From: Bacillota bacterium
Lineage (GTDB): Bacteria > Bacillota_I > Bacilli_A > Izemoplasmatales > Hujiaoplasmataceae
DNA: 64,000 bases
NCBI GenBank assembly: GCA_018818595.1
Contig: JAHIRM010000013.1
Span: forward strand, 186,001 to 250,000
Direction of reading: 5' to 3'
Below, in pieces: positions 37,682 to 45,706 of the stretch. The notes beneath the pieces were generated by a model. It did not search any database and was not told where the DNA came from. It was given only the letters and a program-made list of their open reading frames with translations. The translations under genes and the position numbers were made by a program. Every line of letters begins with the position of its first letter. Within the stretch, counting starts at the first letter, position 1.

Positions 37682-39001
37682 ATGAATAAATCTAAATTAC
37701 TCTATGGGATTCCTTATCTTATCTTACTTAGTGTCTTAACACTGTTTTTTTGGACGTTTCAATTAGAGCAAATTGGCTTTTTGATTTTTTTAGCTGCTAT
37801 CTTCCTCATTTTTGTATTGTTTAAAAATGTTATGCCATCCATTCCTATTTTACTTAACTCTTTATTCATGATTAGTCAAACAGAATGGACATTAAATAAC
37901 ATTCCTTTGTATTTATATCTAACACCTATCGTTTTGATTTTGGGTATTGTGATTCACATCATTCGGTTTAAAGTTAACATATTTAAAGGCAAGATGACCT
38001 TAGGAATTGCTTTAATGTTTCTTGCGATGCTTTTATCTTCTATTAATGCCGAATTTATTAATATCAATTATATTTTTTATGGAGTAATTGGACTTGTATA
38101 TGCTTTTATCTATTTCTTTTATGTTAATTCAATCAAAGGAAATCACATAGATTACTTACTTCAAATGATGATGATACTAGGAGTATTGATTTCTTTTGAA
38201 GTATTGATTTATTATATAAGAGTAGAAGATGTTCTGTATGCTTTAGAACACAAAACCATCGATCTTGGTTGGGGGATTTCTAATTTTATTGCGACCTATT
38301 TAATTATGTTTATTCCAACCACTTTTTATTTTGCTAAAACATCAAAAATTAATTTCTTCTGGATTTTCTTAGGAATTTTTGAAATACTCATGCTCTTTTT
38401 CACTCTTTCTAGAGGTGGCATTCTCGCATTCTTGCTTATTTTTATCTTAGTACTCATTTTCTTATTGAAATCGTCGAATTGGAAGTTAACTCTTTTAAAT
38501 TTTGCTTTAACCATTGCGATATTAACGTTGCTATCTATCTATAATTATGATTTGTTTTCCGCAATCTATGATAGATTTATGAATTTATTATTAGATGATT
38601 CTGGAAGAATAGAAATCTATAAAGATGCTATTGCTACTTTTTTAGCACATCCATTATTTGGGGCAGGTATTTTTGCAAGGTTAGACGCTCTTGGAGATTA
38701 TCGAATGTATCATAATACCATTCTACATACTATGGCCACATTTGGAGCGGTTGGATTGATTGGTTTATTGATTCAATTTTATCAAATGTTTCGAGTGTTT
38801 GTCTATCAATTAAAACCTCAAACACTTATTTTAAGTATTTCTGTTTTAGGGGCTATGGCGCATGGAATGATTGACAATGTCTACTTTATGCCACAATTTA
38901 TGATTATGCTTTTTATAATCATTGCGGTCGTTGAAAATAGTAACAAGGCTTATTTAGAAACACATCAAATAGAACGGTTATCTGAAGGAGTTATTGCTTA
39001 A
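37682..39001 (+). CDS. O-antigen ligase/polymerase-like membrane protein
   Basis: A 439-residue protein with ten to twelve membrane helices. The Wzy/WaaL-type marks are FTLSRGGILAFLLIF and the outer loop HPLFGAGIFARLDALGDYRMYHNTILHTMATFGAVGLIGLL, where the histidine and arginine are usual active residues. In known systems such proteins join or polymerise glycans on a lipid carrier. No glycosyltransferase genes are adjacent, so a surface polysaccharide role is inference. Start follows GGAGGA. Confidence 0.82.
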   Translation: MNKSKLLYGIPYLILLSVLTLFFWTFQLEQIGFLIFLAAIFLIFVLFKNVMPSIPILLNSLFMISQTEWTLNNIPLYLYLTPIVLILGIVIHIIRFKVNIFKGKMTLGIALMFLAMLLSSINAEFININYIFYGVIGLVYAFIYFFYVNSIKGNHIDYLLQMMMILGVLISFEVLIYYIRVEDVLYALEHKTIDLGWGISNFIATYLIMFIPTTFYFAKTSKINFFWIFLGIFEILMLFFTLSRGGILAFLLIFILVLIFLLKSSNWKLTLLNFALTIAILTLLSIYNYDLFSAIYDRFMNLLLDDSGRIEIYKDAIATFLAHPLFGAGIFARLDALGDYRMYHNTILHTMATFGAVGLIGLLIQFYQMFRVFVYQLKPQTLILSISVLGAMAHGMIDNVYFMPQFMIMLFIIIAVVENSNKAYLETHQIERLSEGVIA

Positions 39002-39049
39002 CTACTACTTTTTATGATTCATTTTGTTTCAAGAAATGAGGAATTTTTT

Positions 39050-39961
39050 ATGAATGCAAACAAAACAAAAAACAGATTATCGATTGCGTTTATTCTCAAT
39101 TTATTATTTACCGTTTTTGAATTTGTTGGAGGTTTACTTACAAATAGTATCGCTTTATTATCAGATAGTATTCATGATTTAGGTGATTCTTTATCGATTG
39201 GACTATCAATGATTTTAGAATCAAAATCAAAGAAGAAACCAGATAAAATTTATACGTATGGATACAAAAGATATTCTTTACTTGGAGGACTTATCTCATC
39301 AGTTGTTCTGCTGATAGGATCTACCATCATTATCATTAAAGCTATACCTAGACTCATTCATCCGGAAATGATTGACGTAAATACGGTTTTATGGTTTGCG
39401 GTTATTGGTATTGTGGTAAATGGAATTGCGGCTCTTAATGCTTCCAAAGGCAAATCGATAAATGAAAAAGTCATTAGTTTGCATTTGTTTGAAGATGTTT
39501 TGGGATGGGTAGCACTTTTAATCGCAAGTATCATTATGAGCTTTAGTGATTTTTACATTTTAGATGCGATTTTATCGATTGTTTTTACTCTTTATATCTT
39601 GTTTCATGTTTTTAAGAATATGAGGCAAATTGTTTATGTGTTTTTAGAAAAAGCGCCTACAGAACCTTCGATTTCTTCCATTAAAAAAACCTTAATAGAT
39701 GGAAAGATTATTTTAGATATTCATCATATCCATTATTGGAGTTTAGAAGGAGAAATTCCTTTACTGACACTCCACGCTGTAATTAAACAAGATACTTCAA
39801 AAGAAGAACTAATGAAAGCACAAGAGAAAATGCATCAACTACTTGAAGAATTAAAAATCTTGCATGCGACGATTGAAATTGAATTTGAGAATTCCAAATG
39901 TCATGGTAAGGATTGTGAAGATTTAGAAACAGCGCAAAGTTTCAACCATCATCATCACTAA
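39050..39961 (+). CDS. Cation diffusion facilitator (CDF) metal exporter
   Basis: A 303-residue transporter with six membrane helices and a cytoplasmic C-terminal domain (about 205-303). The metal site of helix 2 and the CDF signature appear in SIALLSDSIHDLGDSLSIGLS, and the matching site of helix 5 near LHLFEDVLGW. The C-terminus carries HHIHYWSLEG and ends in FNHHHH, likely for Zn2+ or similar ions. ATG at 39050 follows GAGGA; the frame's first ATG at 39014 has no ribosome site. Confidence 0.9.
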   Translation: MNANKTKNRLSIAFILNLLFTVFEFVGGLLTNSIALLSDSIHDLGDSLSIGLSMILESKSKKKPDKIYTYGYKRYSLLGGLISSVVLLIGSTIIIIKAIPRLIHPEMIDVNTVLWFAVIGIVVNGIAALNASKGKSINEKVISLHLFEDVLGWVALLIASIIMSFSDFYILDAILSIVFTLYILFHVFKNMRQIVYVFLEKAPTEPSISSIKKTLIDGKIILDIHHIHYWSLEGEIPLLTLHAVIKQDTSKEELMKAQEKMHQLLEELKILHATIEIEFENSKCHGKDCEDLETAQSFNHHHH

Positions 39962-40003
39962 AAAAAAGACTCTTCTACATTGAATGTAGAGGAGTCTTTT
40001 CTA
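39962..40003. terminator. Bidirectional terminator, CDF gene / lipoprotein gene
   Basis: GACTCTTCTACAT pairs with ATGTAGAGGAGTC (one T-G pair). T4 follows on the plus strand and a longer T run on the minus strand. Confidence 0.88.
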
Positions 40004-40016
40004 AAAAAGGATAGAT

Positions 40017-41204
40017 TTATAAGTTCGAATTATCTAATGTATCGTCATCTGTATCATCATCATCGTCATCATTGTTAGAGTTTCCATTGTTTTCTCCGTA
40101 ATAATGTCCGTGATGTTGTTGGTACTCATGCATGTATTGATCGCCATCATCTTGAACTTGGTAAGAATAGATTACTTCGCCAGTTACTTCATCAATTGTT
40201 GCGATTAATTTGATTTGGCCAGATTCTTCCGTTCCATCTGCAGTTACTAATTCATAACGAATTTTAATATAAGTAACGCCATCTTCTGTTTCTTCTTTGT
40301 ATTCAAATGAGGCAGAAGCTAAACCTTCAACGATTTCAAGTTTTACTTTTAATTCATTATCTTCGTTTGAAATTTTAACTTTGCTTTCAGAAGTAACAAT
40401 ACCATCTTGAACAACTTCAAAGAAAAATTTGCTTTCTTCGCCATCGTTTTCAGTTTTGTATTCTACTTTAACATAATTATCTTGATCGATATAAGAACGA
40501 AGTCTTAATACTTCTTCATCATCTTCAACGATTTGTTTTCCTTCAACATTGTAAACAAGATCGCCATCTACTAAGATTCCAGTAATAAGATATTTAACTG
40601 AATCATCTTCGTCATCTTCAAAACAGAAATTATGTTCATTGTCTTGATCTTGCATCATGTCTTGATCCATAGAAAGTGGATCGGTAATTGTAGTCTCTGT
40701 GTCTGTAGTTGTTACTTCAGGTTCTTCCGTTGTAACAGTAGTAGTTGTAGTATCGTCTATGACAACATCGGTTGCATAACTTTCTTCATTGTAGTAAAGA
40801 ATATAAGTATGAGGATTTCCAAGTAAATCAACAGAAGTATAAGTCATCATATATTCCCATTCTGGTAAATCCGAGACAGCTTGAGTAACGGTTAACCCGT
40901 TGTCGCTTCCTAAGAATTGTTCCACCATTGCTAAGTAACGATTGATTTCATCGATTTCAGTACTTACAATTGGTTCCTCCACGATTGGAGTTTCAGTTGT
41001 GTCTTCAAGTACAACAAGGCCTACTGGTAAAGCTGTAGCTTGAACAGTACTTAATTCAATAAGGCTAGATGCGGAAACAGCTTGTAATGCAAATACTTGA
41101 TTATCTGTTTCTAAAACTACTTCTTCAATAATTGGAGCACTTGTACAAGCAAATACACCAAGTCCCATCGCAAATACGAAAAGGGTTGCTAATAATTTTT
41201 TCAT
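40017..41204 (-). CDS. Lipoprotein paralogous to the anti-sigma outer domain
   Basis: A 395-residue secreted protein. Signal peptide with lipobox VFAC gives a lipid-anchored Cys20. The mature part aligns with the outer domain of the neighbouring anti-sigma-like protein: QAVSASSLIE / QAVSATSLLS, EIDEINRYLAMVE / EIDIINKYLNMME, SVDLLGNPHTYILYYN / SMDLLGNLVQFQLYYN, and YIDQDNYVKV / SIDENNYVIV. An acidic insertion (about 135-200) and a tail with a run of Asp (NNDDDDDDTDDD) are added, plus a His-rich patch (YQQHHGHYYG). No known family recognised. It has its own transcript: a terminator and a predicted ECF promoter lie upstream. Ribosome site AGGAGG at 41217-41212. Confidence 0.85.
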   Translation of the reverse strand: MKKLLATLFVFAMGLGVFACTSAPIIEEVVLETDNQVFALQAVSASSLIELSTVQATALPVGLVVLEDTTETPIVEEPIVSTEIDEINRYLAMVEQFLGSDNGLTVTQAVSDLPEWEYMMTYTSVDLLGNPHTYILYYNEESYATDVVIDDTTTTTVTTEEPEVTTTDTETTITDPLSMDQDMMQDQDNEHNFCFEDDEDDSVKYLITGILVDGDLVYNVEGKQIVEDDEEVLRLRSYIDQDNYVKVEYKTENDGEESKFFFEVVQDGIVTSESKVKISNEDNELKVKLEIVEGLASASFEYKEETEDGVTYIKIRYELVTADGTEESGQIKLIATIDEVTGEVIYSYQVQDDGDQYMHEYQQHHGHYYGENNGNSNNDDDDDDTDDDTLDNSNL

Positions 41205-41236
41205 AAAATTTCCTCCTAAATATATTTATCTATTTC

Positions 41237-41265
41237 ATATACGTAAAAATATGCTTTTTTATTGG
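41237..41265 (-). promoter_or_regulatory. Predicted ECF-sigma promoter of the lipoprotein gene
   Basis: On the minus strand CCAAT (41265-41261), 17 bases, CGTATAT (41243-41237). The same blocks with the same spacing lie before the sigma gene; the shared sequence extends to CCAATAAAAA and ACGTATAT. The start codon is about 33 bases downstream. No sigma-A -10 (TATAAT) is seen in between. Confidence 0.6.
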
Positions 41266-41301
41266 AAAAAAAAGTTAATACTTTAAAAAGTATAACTTTT
41301 T
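41266..41301 (-). terminator. Terminator after the anti-sigma gene
   Basis: On the minus strand AAAAAGTTATACTTT pairs with AAAGTATTAACTTTTT (one bulge), ending in T8. It separates the sigma/anti-sigma transcript from the lipoprotein gene. Confidence 0.75.
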
Positions 41302-41303
41302 CT

Positions 41304-42542
41304 TTAAATAACATTCAAATTTTTGATCGAAGTTATTAAATAATCTTCGTTGTAACAATTTTTACCACAATTATCACTTCGTCCTGGACATTGTGATGTA
41401 GTAGTATTTGTATCGTTTGAATCATCAGAATCATCATCGGTAGTAAAATCATCATCATTTGCTTGAGTATTTCCTTTGTCTTGTCGATTACAAATAATTT
41501 CATCGGTATCTTCATTTTCGGTAATCGTATAGCGATATTGATACATTCCAGAGACTTGATTCATTTCAACAGATACATCGATTTGACCAACTAATGAGGT
41601 TTCGTTGTTTAAGATATAATTTACACTGAATCCAGAATTTGCTGCTCCATTGTCAGCTTTTTCAATATTCATTTGGCAGTTTTCGTTTTGAAAACGAGTA
41701 TTAATTTTTGCTTTAATGGAAGTATTTGTTAAGTCTAAAGAAATTTCGCTTTCGTTAATTAAACTTGCATTCTCATATATTTTATATAAAAACTTTTGTC
41801 CGGTAGTGTCGGTAATGTCTTGTACGATAACATAATTGTTTTCATCGATTGAAGCTTGGAATTGTGATTGAATTACTTCACCTGAGTTACTTAATTCGCC
41901 ATGAATGGTATAGGTTATTTCGTTATGAATCATAATTCCGTCTATTAGTTCTAAATCTCCGTCTTGAGTGGTGTTATAGTATAGTTGAAATTGAACTAAA
42001 TTTCCGAGTAAATCCATACTTTTAAATGAAATTTGAGTTTGATAAGCATCATCTTCAGACAGTTTGCTTTGATAAAGAAGAGTTTCTTTGTTACCAATCA
42101 CAACTTCCATCATGTTTAAGTACTTATTAATGATATCAATTTCTGACTCAATGACAGATGTCGTCTCAATTCCTCCAAGAAGTAAAATAGAAGGAGTATC
42201 ACTGGTCATAGATAAACTAAGTGGTGTTGTAAAAGATTCAGAAAGTAAGGAGGTAGCTGATACTGCTTGAAATCCAATTATTTCCGTTTCATTTTCAAGC
42301 GCTGCCTCATAAGGAGATACTGGATTCGATAATGAATTAAAAATAAGGACAGAAGAAACTAGTATAAATAAGAAAGAAAAAGAATAAGTTAAGACTCTTC
42401 GAAGAGAGGTGAAAGGTTTAGCGTTTTCTTCTTGAAAAGCTGGAATAATCTCAATCGAAGATAAATCAATCTTGTTTAAAATTTCTGGCATTTCTTTTAA
42501 TGCTGTTTCTCGAATCAACATTTTTATTTGTCTTGTTTTCAT
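41304..42542 (-). CDS. Membrane-anchored anti-sigma factor-like protein
   Basis: A 412-residue protein with an N-terminal cytoplasmic part of about 48 residues, one membrane helix (about 50-70, YSFSFLFILVSSVLIF) and a large outer domain. The layout and its place 2 bases after an ECF sigma gene indicate an anti-sigma factor. The cytoplasmic part lacks the HxxxCxxC zinc motif of common anti-sigma domains. The outer domain is paralogous to the lipoprotein at 40017-41204. It ends in an Asp/Ser/Thr-rich tail (NDDDFTTDDDSDDSNDTN) followed by a cysteine cluster (CPGRSDNCGKNC), which could bind metal or form disulfides. No known family recognised for the outer domain. Confidence 0.75.
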   Translation of the reverse strand: MKTRQIKMLIRETALKEMPEILNKIDLSSIEIIPAFQEENAKPFTSLRRVLTYSFSFLFILVSSVLIFNSLSNPVSPYEAALENETEIIGFQAVSATSLLSESFTTPLSLSMTSDTPSILLLGGIETTSVIESEIDIINKYLNMMEVVIGNKETLLYQSKLSEDDAYQTQISFKSMDLLGNLVQFQLYYNTTQDGDLELIDGIMIHNEITYTIHGELSNSGEVIQSQFQASIDENNYVIVQDITDTTGQKFLYKIYENASLINESEISLDLTNTSIKAKINTRFQNENCQMNIEKADNGAANSGFSVNYILNNETSLVGQIDVSVEMNQVSGMYQYRYTITENEDTDEIICNRQDKGNTQANDDDFTTDDDSDDSNDTNTTTSQCPGRSDNCGKNCYNEDYLITSIKNLNVI

Positions 42543-42544
42543 GA

Positions 42545-43072
42545 TTACTCCTTTCTAACGGTGTCTTTTAGTTTTTTTATACCTTTATTATAGATCCATA
42601 AGACAGTGCCTAATGGTTTGTCTAGTGTCTTTGCAATATCTTTAAACTTAGTATTTGAAACGATTCTTAATAAAACAACTTGTCTTTCTTCATCATCAAG
42701 AGGTTTCAGTAATTCATTTACTTCATGAGGAGATGAATCATTTTCTAAAGAAGCCGCTTTGTCAAAAATATAAGATTGTTCTTGCGGATCATAGGCAGTT
42801 ACATTATGATTTTTGCGATAAAAATCAATTGCTATGTTTTTTGCGATTTGCAAAAGCCAAGCGTTAAAATTACGACCTATTTGGTAAGAATTAATATTTT
42901 TAAGCATTTTGATATATGTTTCTTGCATCAAATCTTCGGTTTCGCTTTTATCTTTTACAATCGAGATAATTATCGAGAACACGCCTCTTTTTGTATGCTC
43001 ATAAACAAGCTCAAATGCCTTATCGTCCTTTAGTTTTAGTAATTCGATATAGTCATCGAAGTTTATATACAT
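42545..43072 (-). CDS. ECF-type RNA polymerase sigma factor
   Basis: A 175-residue sigma-70-family factor with only regions 2 and 4. Region 2: AFELVYEHTKRGVFSIIISIVKDKSETEDLMQETYIKMLKNI with NFNAWLLQIAKNIAIDFYRK. Region 4: LDDEERQVVLLRIVSNTKFKDIAKTLDKPLGTVLWIYNKGIKKLK, a helix-turn-helix for -35 recognition. Such factors are held inactive by the membrane protein encoded next and released on an envelope signal. Ribosome site AAGGTGGTGA lies before the ATG. Two promoters precede it, one sigma-A-like and one of the predicted ECF type, suggesting autoregulation. Confidence 0.93.
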   Translation of the reverse strand: MYINFDDYIELLKLKDDKAFELVYEHTKRGVFSIIISIVKDKSETEDLMQETYIKMLKNINSYQIGRNFNAWLLQIAKNIAIDFYRKNHNVTAYDPQEQSYIFDKAASLENDSSPHEVNELLKPLDDEERQVVLLRIVSNTKFKDIAKTLDKPLGTVLWIYNKGIKKLKDTVRKE

Positions 43073-43095
43073 TCCCGTTCACCACCTTGATGATA

Positions 43096-43123
43096 ATTAT
43101 ACCATATCAAGTTATATTGTGAA
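43096..43123 (-). promoter_or_regulatory. Sigma-A-like proximal promoter of the ECF sigma gene
   Basis: On the minus strand TTCACA (43123-43118), 16 bases, TATAAT (43101-43096) with an extended TGG. Confidence 0.6.
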
Positions 43124-43153
43124 CTCAATTCACTAAAAGAATTTTCTTACCTA

Positions 43154-43182
43154 ATATACGTTATTGTGTACGTTTTTATTGG
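43154..43182 (-). promoter_or_regulatory. Predicted ECF promoter of the sigma gene (autoregulation)
   Basis: On the minus strand CCAAT (43182-43178), 17 bases, CGTATAT (43160-43154), matching the element before the lipoprotein gene in both blocks and in spacing. Confidence 0.6.
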
Positions 43183-43210
43183 TATGTTTTAATTTTATTG
43201 TTTGATTGCG

Positions 43211-43239
43211 TTTACAAAGAGGAGAATTTATAATATAAT
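43211..43239 (+). promoter_or_regulatory. Promoter of the DUF1624 / ligase operon
   Basis: TTTACA (43211-43216), 17 bases, TATAAT (43234-43239). Confidence 0.75.
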
Positions 43240-43267
43240 CTTGACATAATGAATATGGGTGAAATTG

Positions 43268-44068
43268 ATGGAAAAAGTAAAAAAATACCGAATTTGGGAA
43301 TTAGATTTTTTAAGAGGGTTAGCCATTTTATTAATGGTGTTTGATCATTTAATGTTCGATTTAAAAAGTTTACCAAATTGGTTTAGTAATTTTTACTCCG
43401 TTGGAAGTCCTTTTATGGAATGGTTATATGATTTTGCCTCTTTGTATTGGGAATCTGCTCTTAGGGCATATGGGCATATTGTGTTCGTAGCGATTTTTTT
43501 ACTGGTCTCAGGTATCAGTTTTAATTTCAGCCGTTCCAATTTAAAACGAGGATTAAAATTTTTAGCTGTAGCCATTATAATATCTGTTATTACTATGACA
43601 ACCGAAGTCGTTTCAGGATTGCAAATAGGTATTCTATTTGGAATCATTCACTTATTTGCGGTTGGAACACTTCTTACTTATTTGTTTCGTAAAATTTGGA
43701 ATAATGATGTATTTATCTTAGCCCTTGGTCTCATTATTATTGGAATTGGATTTTATATTGAGTGGTGGAAAGTTTCTTATTATGAAACCATTACTTTTTC
43801 CAGATTTTTTGAAATTATCATAGGTTTAAAAGGATACGGTGCAGACTATTTTGGAATCATCCCTTACACTGGCGTAATAATGGTTGGTACCGTACTTGGA
43901 AATTTATTCTATTCGAAAAGAGTCTCGCTACTTCCAGGTCTTGATAAAAAATGGAACCGTCCTTTTGTCTTTGCTGGACAAAAATCTTTAATTATATTTG
44001 TAACACATCAACTTGTTATTTTAACTTTAGTATATCTTTTGGGGTATCTTTTAGGTTATAGACTATAA
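43268..44068 (+). CDS. DUF1624 (heparan-alpha-glucosaminide acetyltransferase-like) membrane protein
   Basis: A 266-residue protein with about seven membrane helices. The start WELDFLRGLAILLMVFDHLMFDL holds the conserved arginine and the membrane histidine of the acyltransferase clan to which DUF1624 belongs. The family is related to enzymes that carry acyl groups across the membrane to sugars. The next gene, 18 bases downstream, is an AMP-forming acyl ligase, so the pair may activate an acyl group and use it in the envelope (inference). ATG at 43268 follows GGGTGA. Confidence 0.82.
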   Translation: MEKVKKYRIWELDFLRGLAILLMVFDHLMFDLKSLPNWFSNFYSVGSPFMEWLYDFASLYWESALRAYGHIVFVAIFLLVSGISFNFSRSNLKRGLKFLAVAIIISVITMTTEVVSGLQIGILFGIIHLFAVGTLLTYLFRKIWNNDVFILALGLIIIGIGFYIEWWKVSYYETITFSRFFEIIIGLKGYGADYFGIIPYTGVIMVGTVLGNLFYSKRVSLLPGLDKKWNRPFVFAGQKSLIIFVTHQLVILTLVYLLGYLLGYRL

Positions 44069-44086
44069 ATTAGGAGGAATGATTTA

Positions 44087-45706
44087 ATGAATACAAATTT
44101 ATCATTATACGATGCAATCAAAGACACCAACGCAAGAATTCCACAAAATAATGCATTATTATTTATGGACAAATTCATTACGTACGAAGCATTAATTAAG
44201 CGAATTAATCAAGTAAGTGAATCTCTATTAAAGCTTAAGATTACTTCAAAAGATGTCGTAACAATGGCAATGCCTAATATATTTGAGGCTATTTATGCAT
44301 TCTATGCAGTAAACAAAATAGGAGCAATTTGCCATATGGTCCATCCATTTACGCCTCCCAACCAAATGAGAAGGTTTATGGAAAAAACAGGAAGTAAGAC
44401 GCTTATTGTTGTGGATACATTTTACGATCATTATAAAGAGTTGTTAGCTGATTCATCCATCACAATGATTCTTGCAAATCCTACATCAGAATTTGGAATG
44501 ATTAAAAAAATTGGATACAAATTAATTAACGCAAAAAAATTAAAAGGAATCGTATACTCAGATAAAGTTCTTTCTTTTAATGCATTGTTAAAGGAATCTT
44601 CCATTACAAGAAATGATGAAATTGACCCAAAAAGAACCGCTGTATATCTACACAGTGGTGGAACATTAGGTGAACCAAAAACAATTGAATTGTCAAGTTT
44701 TGCCATTAATAGTTTAGCAGCTAAAACTTCATTTATTTTAGGTGAAAGTCAGTTTTCAAATAAATACATGCTTGCAGTTTTACCGATGTTTCATGGGTTT
44801 GGATTATGTATGGGCGTTCATGCAATGCTTTGTAATGGCGGAATTAACACATTAATGCCAAAATTTGATGCGCTTCAAGCAATTAAATTGCTTAAGAAAA
44901 ATCAAATTAATTATGTTATTGGAGTTCCTTCTTTATTTGAAAACTTATTAAGCAAACCTGAAATCAGAGGGACACATCTACAAAATCTTCACCAAGCATT
45001 TGTGGGGGGAGATTATGTTGCTTTGGATTTAAAAAACAGATTTGATCGTTTGATGAAAGAATTTGGATCAAAAGCAAGATTGTTAGAAGGATATGGGTTA
45101 ACAGAAGTTGTTACTGTTTGTTCGGTTAACACGTTAAAAGAACATGTACAAACAAGTGTTGGAAAACCTCTTCCAGGAATTGATATGAAAATTGTCGATG
45201 TAGAGACAAGAGCAATACTTGAAACCAATGTGCCAGGAGAAATTATTGTAGCTGGTGATACGATGATGAATGGATATTTAGAAGATGATGAAACGAACGC
45301 TTCAACCTTCTTAATAGATGATAAATCCAAAAAATGGATTCTAACAGGAGATTTTGGTTTTTTAGATTCAGAAGGCTATGTTCATTTTAAACAAAGATTA
45401 AAACGAATAATTAAAGTTTCTGGAATCCCAGTTTTACCTGCAGAAATCGAAAATTTATTGATGAATTTTAAAGAAATTAAAGAAGTTGCCGCAGTAGGCG
45501 TTCCTGATATCGAAAAAGGATTTATGATTAAATTATTTGTCGTTACAGATAATTCCGTTTCAACTGCTATTTTAAATGAAAAAATACATAAAGCAATCAA
45601 ATCAGAATTATCGATGTATGCTATTCCCAAAGAAATCGTGTATTTAGATTCTTTGCCCAAAACAATTATTGGAAAGATTGATACGAGAAAATTAGAAACG
45701 ATGTAA
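44087..45706 (+). CDS. AMP-forming acyl-CoA synthetase/ligase
   Basis: A 539-residue enzyme of the adenylate-forming class. The phosphate-binding loop is LHSGGTLGEPKTIELSS, a variant of TSGTTGxPK; the adenylate motifs LEGYGLTEV and LTGDFGFLD are intact, as is the C-terminal swinging lysine region (LPKTIIGKIDTRKLE). It likely activates a carboxylic or fatty acid as acyl-AMP and then the thioester; the acid is unknown. Start follows AGGAGGAATG. In an operon with the DUF1624 membrane protein. Confidence 0.88.
   Translation: MNTNLSLYDAIKDTNARIPQNNALLFMDKFITYEALIKRINQVSESLLKLKITSKDVVTMAMPNIFEAIYAFYAVNKIGAICHMVHPFTPPNQMRRFMEKTGSKTLIVVDTFYDHYKELLADSSITMILANPTSEFGMIKKIGYKLINAKKLKGIVYSDKVLSFNALLKESSITRNDEIDPKRTAVYLHSGGTLGEPKTIELSSFAINSLAAKTSFILGESQFSNKYMLAVLPMFHGFGLCMGVHAMLCNGGINTLMPKFDALQAIKLLKKNQINYVIGVPSLFENLLSKPEIRGTHLQNLHQAFVGGDYVALDLKNRFDRLMKEFGSKARLLEGYGLTEVVTVCSVNTLKEHVQTSVGKPLPGIDMKIVDVETRAILETNVPGEIIVAGDTMMNGYLEDDETNASTFLIDDKSKKWILTGDFGFLDSEGYVHFKQRLKRIIKVSGIPVLPAEIENLLMNFKEIKEVAAVGVPDIEKGFMIKLFVVTDNSVSTAILNEKIHKAIKSELSMYAIPKEIVYLDSLPKTIIGKIDTRKLETM

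Follow-up and report, generated by a model that had tools for sequence, protein, structure and literature searches.

The window, a stretch of 64,000 nucleotides of Izemoplasmatales DNA, carries on its minus strand a compact locus in which an ECF sigma factor, a single-pass membrane protein and a lipoprotein are encoded in a row, the last two being built on the same outer domain. The three genes, the homology of the two outer domains, the class-wide conservation, a promoter of fixed spacing with a predicted regulon, a recurrent stub, an RseP-type protease and a second mirror pair all emerge from sequence comparison. The architecture of the locus and its promoter are well supported. The recurrence of the trio and the promoter in wall-less and related bacteria suggests that a sensor is paired with a matching surface protein. 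Our preferred reading, whose chance of being right we put at slightly below even, is that the locus acts as an envelope-stress switch in which a lipoprotein mirrors the sensor, and in which the handling of a ligand would provide homeostatic feedback. The switch occurs in relatives of Bacilli that are wall-less or nearly so; Izemoplasmatales have been described as peptidoglycan-less by loss (PMC10868615). A literature search, including Acholeplasma and Izemoplasma, found no paper on ECF signalling in such organisms. The features of the locus are as follows:

43155..43182, minus strand: predicted ECF promoter for the operon of the sigma factor and the membrane protein, CCAATAAAAACGTACACAATAACGTATA, motif CCAATAA-N15-CGTATA
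43096..43123, minus strand: second promoter, of housekeeping type, before the sigma factor gene, TTCACA-N16-TATAAT with an extended -10, 11/12 matches
42545..43072, minus strand: gene for a 175-aa ECF sigma factor with sigma regions 2 and 4 and no others
42414..42542, minus strand: sigma-binding stub (predicted), roughly codons 1-43 of the membrane protein gene, from a stub-only profile search
41304..42542, minus strand: gene for the single-pass membrane protein of 412 aa, a predicted anti-sigma factor
41262..41302, minus strand: AT-rich hairpin and U-run in the gap between the lipoprotein gene and that of the membrane protein, a probable terminator with an RNA fold of -9.4 kcal/mol, z = -4.65
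41238..41265, minus strand: predicted ECF promoter of the lipoprotein gene, CCAATAAAAAAGCATATTTTTACGTATA, with exactly the same N15 spacing
40017..41204, minus strand: lipoprotein gene, 395 aa
39958..40000, minus strand: intrinsic terminator 3' of the lipoprotein gene, RNA fold -17.6 kcal/mol, z = -6.37

All three open reading frames, which the initial annotation had placed in a row on this strand, are real. The sigma protein matches PF04542 (7.8e-16) and PF04545 (1.3e-6) in Pfam, region 3 being without a match, and scores above the cut-off of the NCBIfam model TIGR02937 (sigma70-ECF). It has the make-up of an ECF sigma factor, namely regions 2 and 4 without 1.1 and 3, in a chain of about 160-200 aa. 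The start codon of the membrane protein lies 2 nt past the sigma stop codon. The lipoprotein gene is a separate transcription unit in the window, with its own promoter motif and with hairpins on both sides.

The membrane protein consists of a cytoplasmic stub (residues ~1-42), a transmembrane helix, an all-beta outer domain (~156-352) and an Asp/Thr-rich tail. Hydropathy and the AlphaFold2 model agree on one hydrophobic helix at residues ~46-72. The model has a mean pLDDT of 81.6, rising to ~95 in the outer domain, and the outer part is built of helices followed by a meander of ~14-15 beta strands. The lipoprotein begins with a signal peptide, and its lipobox cysteine, Cys20, is invariant in 38/38 homologues. 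The ordered part of its AlphaFold2 model has a pLDDT of ~85-93, and the elements follow one another as in the membrane protein, except that the outer domain is interrupted by a T/E-rich linker (~148-187).

The two outer domains align by BLASTP over ~355 residues with 21% identity and E = 7e-17. This bears out the alignment first noticed from the sequence alone, and includes its QAVSA, EID-IN-YL, DLLGN and ID--NYV blocks. Profile-profile comparison, with 38 homologues per profile, gives a probability of 100% and E = 1.6e-48 over 263 columns. These columns cover the folded domain, so the composition of the acidic tails does not account for the similarity. The initial annotation would have been undermined had the outer domains fallen into two unrelated known families; profile and sequence searches gave no family for either, whether in Pfam, NCBIfam or the sequences of the PDB, and none of the members of the two outer-domain families (38 homologues) had a consistent Pfam match. 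Weak matches to 4em0 (0.008) and DUF7948 (4/38 members) were discarded as inconsistent across members. Foldseek comparison of the outer domains with the PDB and with viral models returned nothing at E <= 0.001, and at the same threshold the lipoprotein matched no solved structure by fold; porin-like and OspA-like matches, with TM-scores of ~0.3 or less, were set aside. Because the Pfam, PDB sequence and Foldseek searches gave nothing credible, the outer domain is an undescribed family without a match among solved structures. It has a high-confidence model, and no solved fold resembles it.

The promoter motif CCAATAA-N15-CGTATA was found by reading upstream regions side by side. Its halves are spaced by exactly 15 nt in 56/56 instances at the loci of the home family, and the sites of that family with a spacing of 14 or 16 were taken as chance because all 56 locus sites have 15. 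With spacings of 14-16 allowed, 34 genomes of the same family contain 111 motif sites compared with 10 for a reversed-pattern control, and 27 genomes of two sister families contain 6 compared with 7. The sigma factor would appear to use this motif and is predicted to be autoregulated, through a promoter that it shares with its regulon. Housekeeping-type sites like the one before the sigma gene are about as numerous in the region as expected from shuffled sequence. In genomes whose lipoprotein gene lies on the upstream side of sigma, it is the lipoprotein gene that has the motif in front of it, and only a TATAAT-type site is left before sigma. In distant families the motif is retained ahead of the lipoprotein gene, with a slightly altered second half (CGTTTA, TTGTATA) and a spacing of 14-16, and the sole exact motif site in one distant genome (G147) stands before the lipoprotein gene. 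By these observations, the lipoprotein is the most constant predicted target.

A single-sequence pattern scan of genome contigs yielded one relative only, and species collections were far more productive. The sigma and membrane protein genes are adjacent in all 34 same-family genomes searched. The lipoprotein gene adjoins this pair, upstream or downstream, in 24/34 (one of them cut by a contig end), and lies elsewhere in the genome in 6/34, preceded there by the motif. A lipoprotein of this set is absent from the genus g8 (4/4 genomes), in which the sigma factor and the membrane protein are present; the copy is therefore not indispensable. The lipoprotein profile matches 135/395 genomes across the class, and the full trio is found at 22/40 distant loci fetched, in six to seven families (f1, f3, f9, f12, f16, f18, f20), a proportion that is no estimate of frequency because these loci were picked for a match to the lipoprotein profile. 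The expectation that the three genes stay together in relatives was thus upheld, in the home family and at the distant loci. The genome of L036 has extra copies of the lipoprotein. Lipoproteins without the anti-sigma stub are present in five genomes of the family f10, with no sigma gene nearby.

Away from the locus, sequence comparison places the motif before a few recurring gene classes. Secreted subtilases (PF00082) stand behind it in 12 genomes, the target in the home genome (G000:C26:140) being a 962-aa subtilase with Listeria-Bacteroides repeats. In 9 genomes it precedes genes for secreted ferritin-like proteins, whose match to DUF2202 is weak and falls short of the cut-off. RsgI_M lipoproteins are predicted targets in 4 genomes and trypsin-like lipoproteins in 3, and a single genome has the motif before an FtsX-type permease. 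Some sites inside genes, such as those in G006/G014 (a thiamine pyrophosphokinase-like gene), L125 and L145, were left out, as was a site in the home genome (G000:C9) before a 950-aa membrane protein. The predicted regulon is a surface-maintenance set, and it is of significance that a clear predicted promoter defines it in dozens of genomes.

Some proteins found in a class-wide search with the profile of the membrane protein match over the first ~80 residues only. Nine of them, all with other outer domains, have an ECF sigma gene as immediate neighbour. A profile of the stub without the transmembrane helix recovers the same nine proteins, with E from 2e-6 to 9e-3, and no others rise above background. 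The signal is carried by residues 1-25, the most conserved part of the stub (MKxKxxxxxIKxxAxxEMPDVxxxI). According to Pfam or a local profile, six of the nine match PF23750 (RsgI_M) or fall just under the cut-off; with the local profile, eight have an RsgI_M or RsgI_M-like outer domain, and the ninth (L268) has no recognised one. The stub is thus a portable element that travels next to sigma genes. Its recurrence on nine sigma-adjacent proteins with other outer domains suggests that it is probably the sigma-binding part, and strengthens the predicted anti-sigma role of the membrane protein. The home genome contains a single RseP-type protease. No site-1 protease was identified, and PrsW is absent from the genome.

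The pairing of sensor and lipoprotein extends to a second domain. L265 encodes an RsgI_M lipoprotein, a sigma factor and an RsgI_M anti-sigma factor in this order, and the lipoprotein is 52% identical to the outer region of the anti-sigma factor over 376 aa. L267 has the same order, with 24% identity and E = 1e-9. Mirroring of a sensor's outer domain by a lipoprotein has thus occurred also with RsgI_M, which is unrelated to the all-beta domain. In L224-L226 (f12, Acholeplasma-type), an all-beta anti-sigma factor adjoins an RsgI_M lipoprotein and the TTGTATA promoter variant is common to both units, so the two proteins need not share a domain.

In 41/45 loci, sensor and lipoprotein resemble each other more closely than they do when taken from different loci (Wilcoxon 1.2e-7). 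The same-locus similarity holds within the home family (permutation p < 1e-4), although shared ancestry of the loci contributes to it there. The mean pairwise identity is 44% for the lipoprotein compared with 28% for the sensor, and it is higher for the lipoprotein in 210/210 pairs from 21 loci. The lipoprotein has work of its own, because it is more conserved than the sensor and is present in f10 without an anti-sigma gene. In the tree, sensors and lipoproteins of the home family form separate clades, a split that probably reflects an old duplication. A single ancient duplication behind all pairs is too simple, because in the midpoint-rooted tree some lineages pair sensor with lipoprotein locally: L220 (support 0.998), L207 (0.78), f12, and the second set of f1/f3.

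These observations can be assembled into the following mechanism, of which the binding of sigma by the stub, the use of this promoter by this sigma factor, the proteolytic release, the shared ligand and the direction of the feedback are what we infer. The cytoplasmic stub of the anti-sigma factor would hold the ECF sigma factor, while the all-beta outer domain surveys the cell surface. A ligand, or a damage signal, at the outer domain would lead to cutting of the anti-sigma factor and would free sigma; the site-2 cut would probably be made by the genome's single RseP-type protease. Free sigma would then read CCAATAA-N15-CGTATA and turn on its own operon, the mirror lipoprotein and a small, lineage-dependent secreted set, here the surface subtilase. 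The lipoprotein, tethered outside the membrane and binding the same ligand, may be the main working receptor or effector, of which the anti-sigma outer domain would be a sampling copy; it is given the primary role because it works without an anti-sigma factor in f10 and is under the stronger constraint. By removing or tolerating the ligand it would weaken the signal at the anti-sigma factor, which would close a homeostatic feedback loop. A broader proposal is that selection has made such mirroring, on a lipoprotein under sigma control, a design principle of the class, kept by recurrent homogenisation, having arisen for two unrelated domains (the new all-beta fold and RsgI_M), attached to a common sigma-binding stub of ~25 residues and providing ligand-titration feedback at the cell surface. 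We regard it as possible, with the balance leaning against it.

The main rival to the feedback switch is that the lipoprotein binds the outer domain of the anti-sigma factor and shields it from cleavage in the manner of RseB, so that its induction would reset the switch. Homologous all-beta domains could pair via edge strands, and the greater similarity within loci than between them is what would be expected of interacting partners. There is also an established precedent in RseB, which binds the periplasmic part of RseA (PMC8103513), although RseB is not a homologue of RseA and the precedent is thus limited to the logic. The shielding role is harder to reconcile with the f10 lipoproteins, which occur without any anti-sigma gene, and with the four g8 genomes, which lack the partner lipoprotein; we consider it unlikely. 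The initial annotation had suggested that the lipoprotein might bind the same ligand, act as a decoy or pair with the sensor. The shared outer domain, its lack of a known family and the conservation of the three genes all stand, and the predicted anti-sigma role is strengthened by the recurrent stub. The stand-alone lipoproteins of f10 and the higher conservation of the lipoprotein argue against a pure decoy or a pure partner.

The same two facts, together with the extra copies in L036 and with three loci in which the regulated lipoprotein carries another domain, would fit a plain surface effector whose domain, an ancestral fold common to both proteins, was also recruited as a sensor, with no feedback involved. 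This would leave unexplained both the excess similarity of sensor and lipoprotein from the same locus and the recurrence of the mirror pattern with an unrelated domain, and we hold it to be rather improbable. A further reading, in which the membrane protein is an accessory or activating product of the operon and not an anti-sigma factor, draws on its short cytoplasmic part (~45 residues) and on a Pfam search that found no anti-sigma domain in it. It is hard to square with the membrane protein gene being always paired with the sigma gene at close spacing, and with nine further membrane proteins, encoded beside sigma genes, that carry this stub, mostly together with RsgI_M, a domain of known anti-sigma factors. 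This reading is very improbable.

Several known systems resemble the feedback switch in part. FecI-FecR cell-surface signalling likewise combines an ECF sigma factor and a regulator in the membrane with an outer partner encoded by one of the target genes of the sigma factor. However, the partner there is a TonB-dependent receptor that is not homologous to the regulator, and there is none here. In SigI-RsgI of Clostridium thermocellum and others, the carbohydrate-binding modules of the anti-sigma factors are common to the extracellular machinery that is controlled. Similarly, RsgI_M is found in this lineage on sister anti-sigma factors and on lipoproteins of the regulon. Unlike in that system, the sigma factor here is of the ECF type and the home membrane protein has the new all-beta domain, not RsgI_M, with no match to PF23750 in Pfam. 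In SigV-RsiV, the lysozyme receptor of Bacillus/Clostridium, the outer domain of the anti-sigma factor is also a receptor and release is by regulated proteolysis; we know of no obligate lipoprotein copy in that system. The RsiV domains DUF4163/DUF3298, which are present in other proteins too, and RsiV and RsgI as precedents for receptor-type anti-sigma factors have been described (PMC5014341). Pfam found neither of these two domains in the home membrane protein or its 38 homologues.

A further parallel is the envelope-stress system RpoE-RseA-RseB of E. coli, which has an ECF sigma factor, a single-pass anti-sigma factor, a third, extracytoplasmic protein that acts in this pathway too, and an RseP-type protease. 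The trio described here is more general than a single locus, given its class-wide occurrence and the second mirror pair on another domain, and it offers a small and testable system in which sensor and effector have one recognition domain in common. The shared domain is confirmed, and what lies beyond transcription would follow the mechanism set out above. RseB is not homologous to the outer domain of RseA, whereas here the third component is a lipoprotein that copies the sensor domain and has a sigma-type promoter to itself.

The surroundings of the trio of ECF sigma factor, predicted anti-sigma membrane protein and lipoprotein (window positions 37682-45706) are syntenic across the home family. 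The neighbours are arranged as follows:

O-antigen-ligase-like protein, on one flank of the trio, before the cation diffusion facilitator; near the locus in 19 fetched loci
Cation diffusion facilitator whose tail is rich in His, between the O-antigen-ligase-like gene and the trio; in 19
43259-44068, HGSNAT-like acyltransferase, directly after the trio in gene order, next to the sigma gene and divergent from it; in 26
44087-45706, acyl-ligase-like gene, after the acyltransferase; in 22

A divergent second set of sigma factor, anti-sigma and lipoprotein was found in loci L229, L230, L231 and L213-L215. Its promoter is of the TTGTATATA type, and the main and second sets are present together in some genomes.

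Other lipoproteins (L142, L143, L129, L131, L224-L226, L228, L265 and L267) are built on the RsgI_M domain (PF23750), some with two copies of it; they adjoin ECF genes or are positioned downstream of the main promoter motif. In family f10 of the class, trio-type lipoproteins stand alone (L198-L200, L203, L204, L222 and L223), several per genome, and are accompanied by neither a sigma nor an anti-sigma gene. Several of their upstream regions carry repeated (C)TTCACA/ATCACA-like words followed by a TATAAT box, the words perhaps being the mark of another regulator.

Secreted ferritin-like (DUF2202-related) proteins are recurrent predicted targets (L056, L072, L076, L153, L120, L126, L128, L140 and L149), which hints at a signal with an oxidative or metal component.
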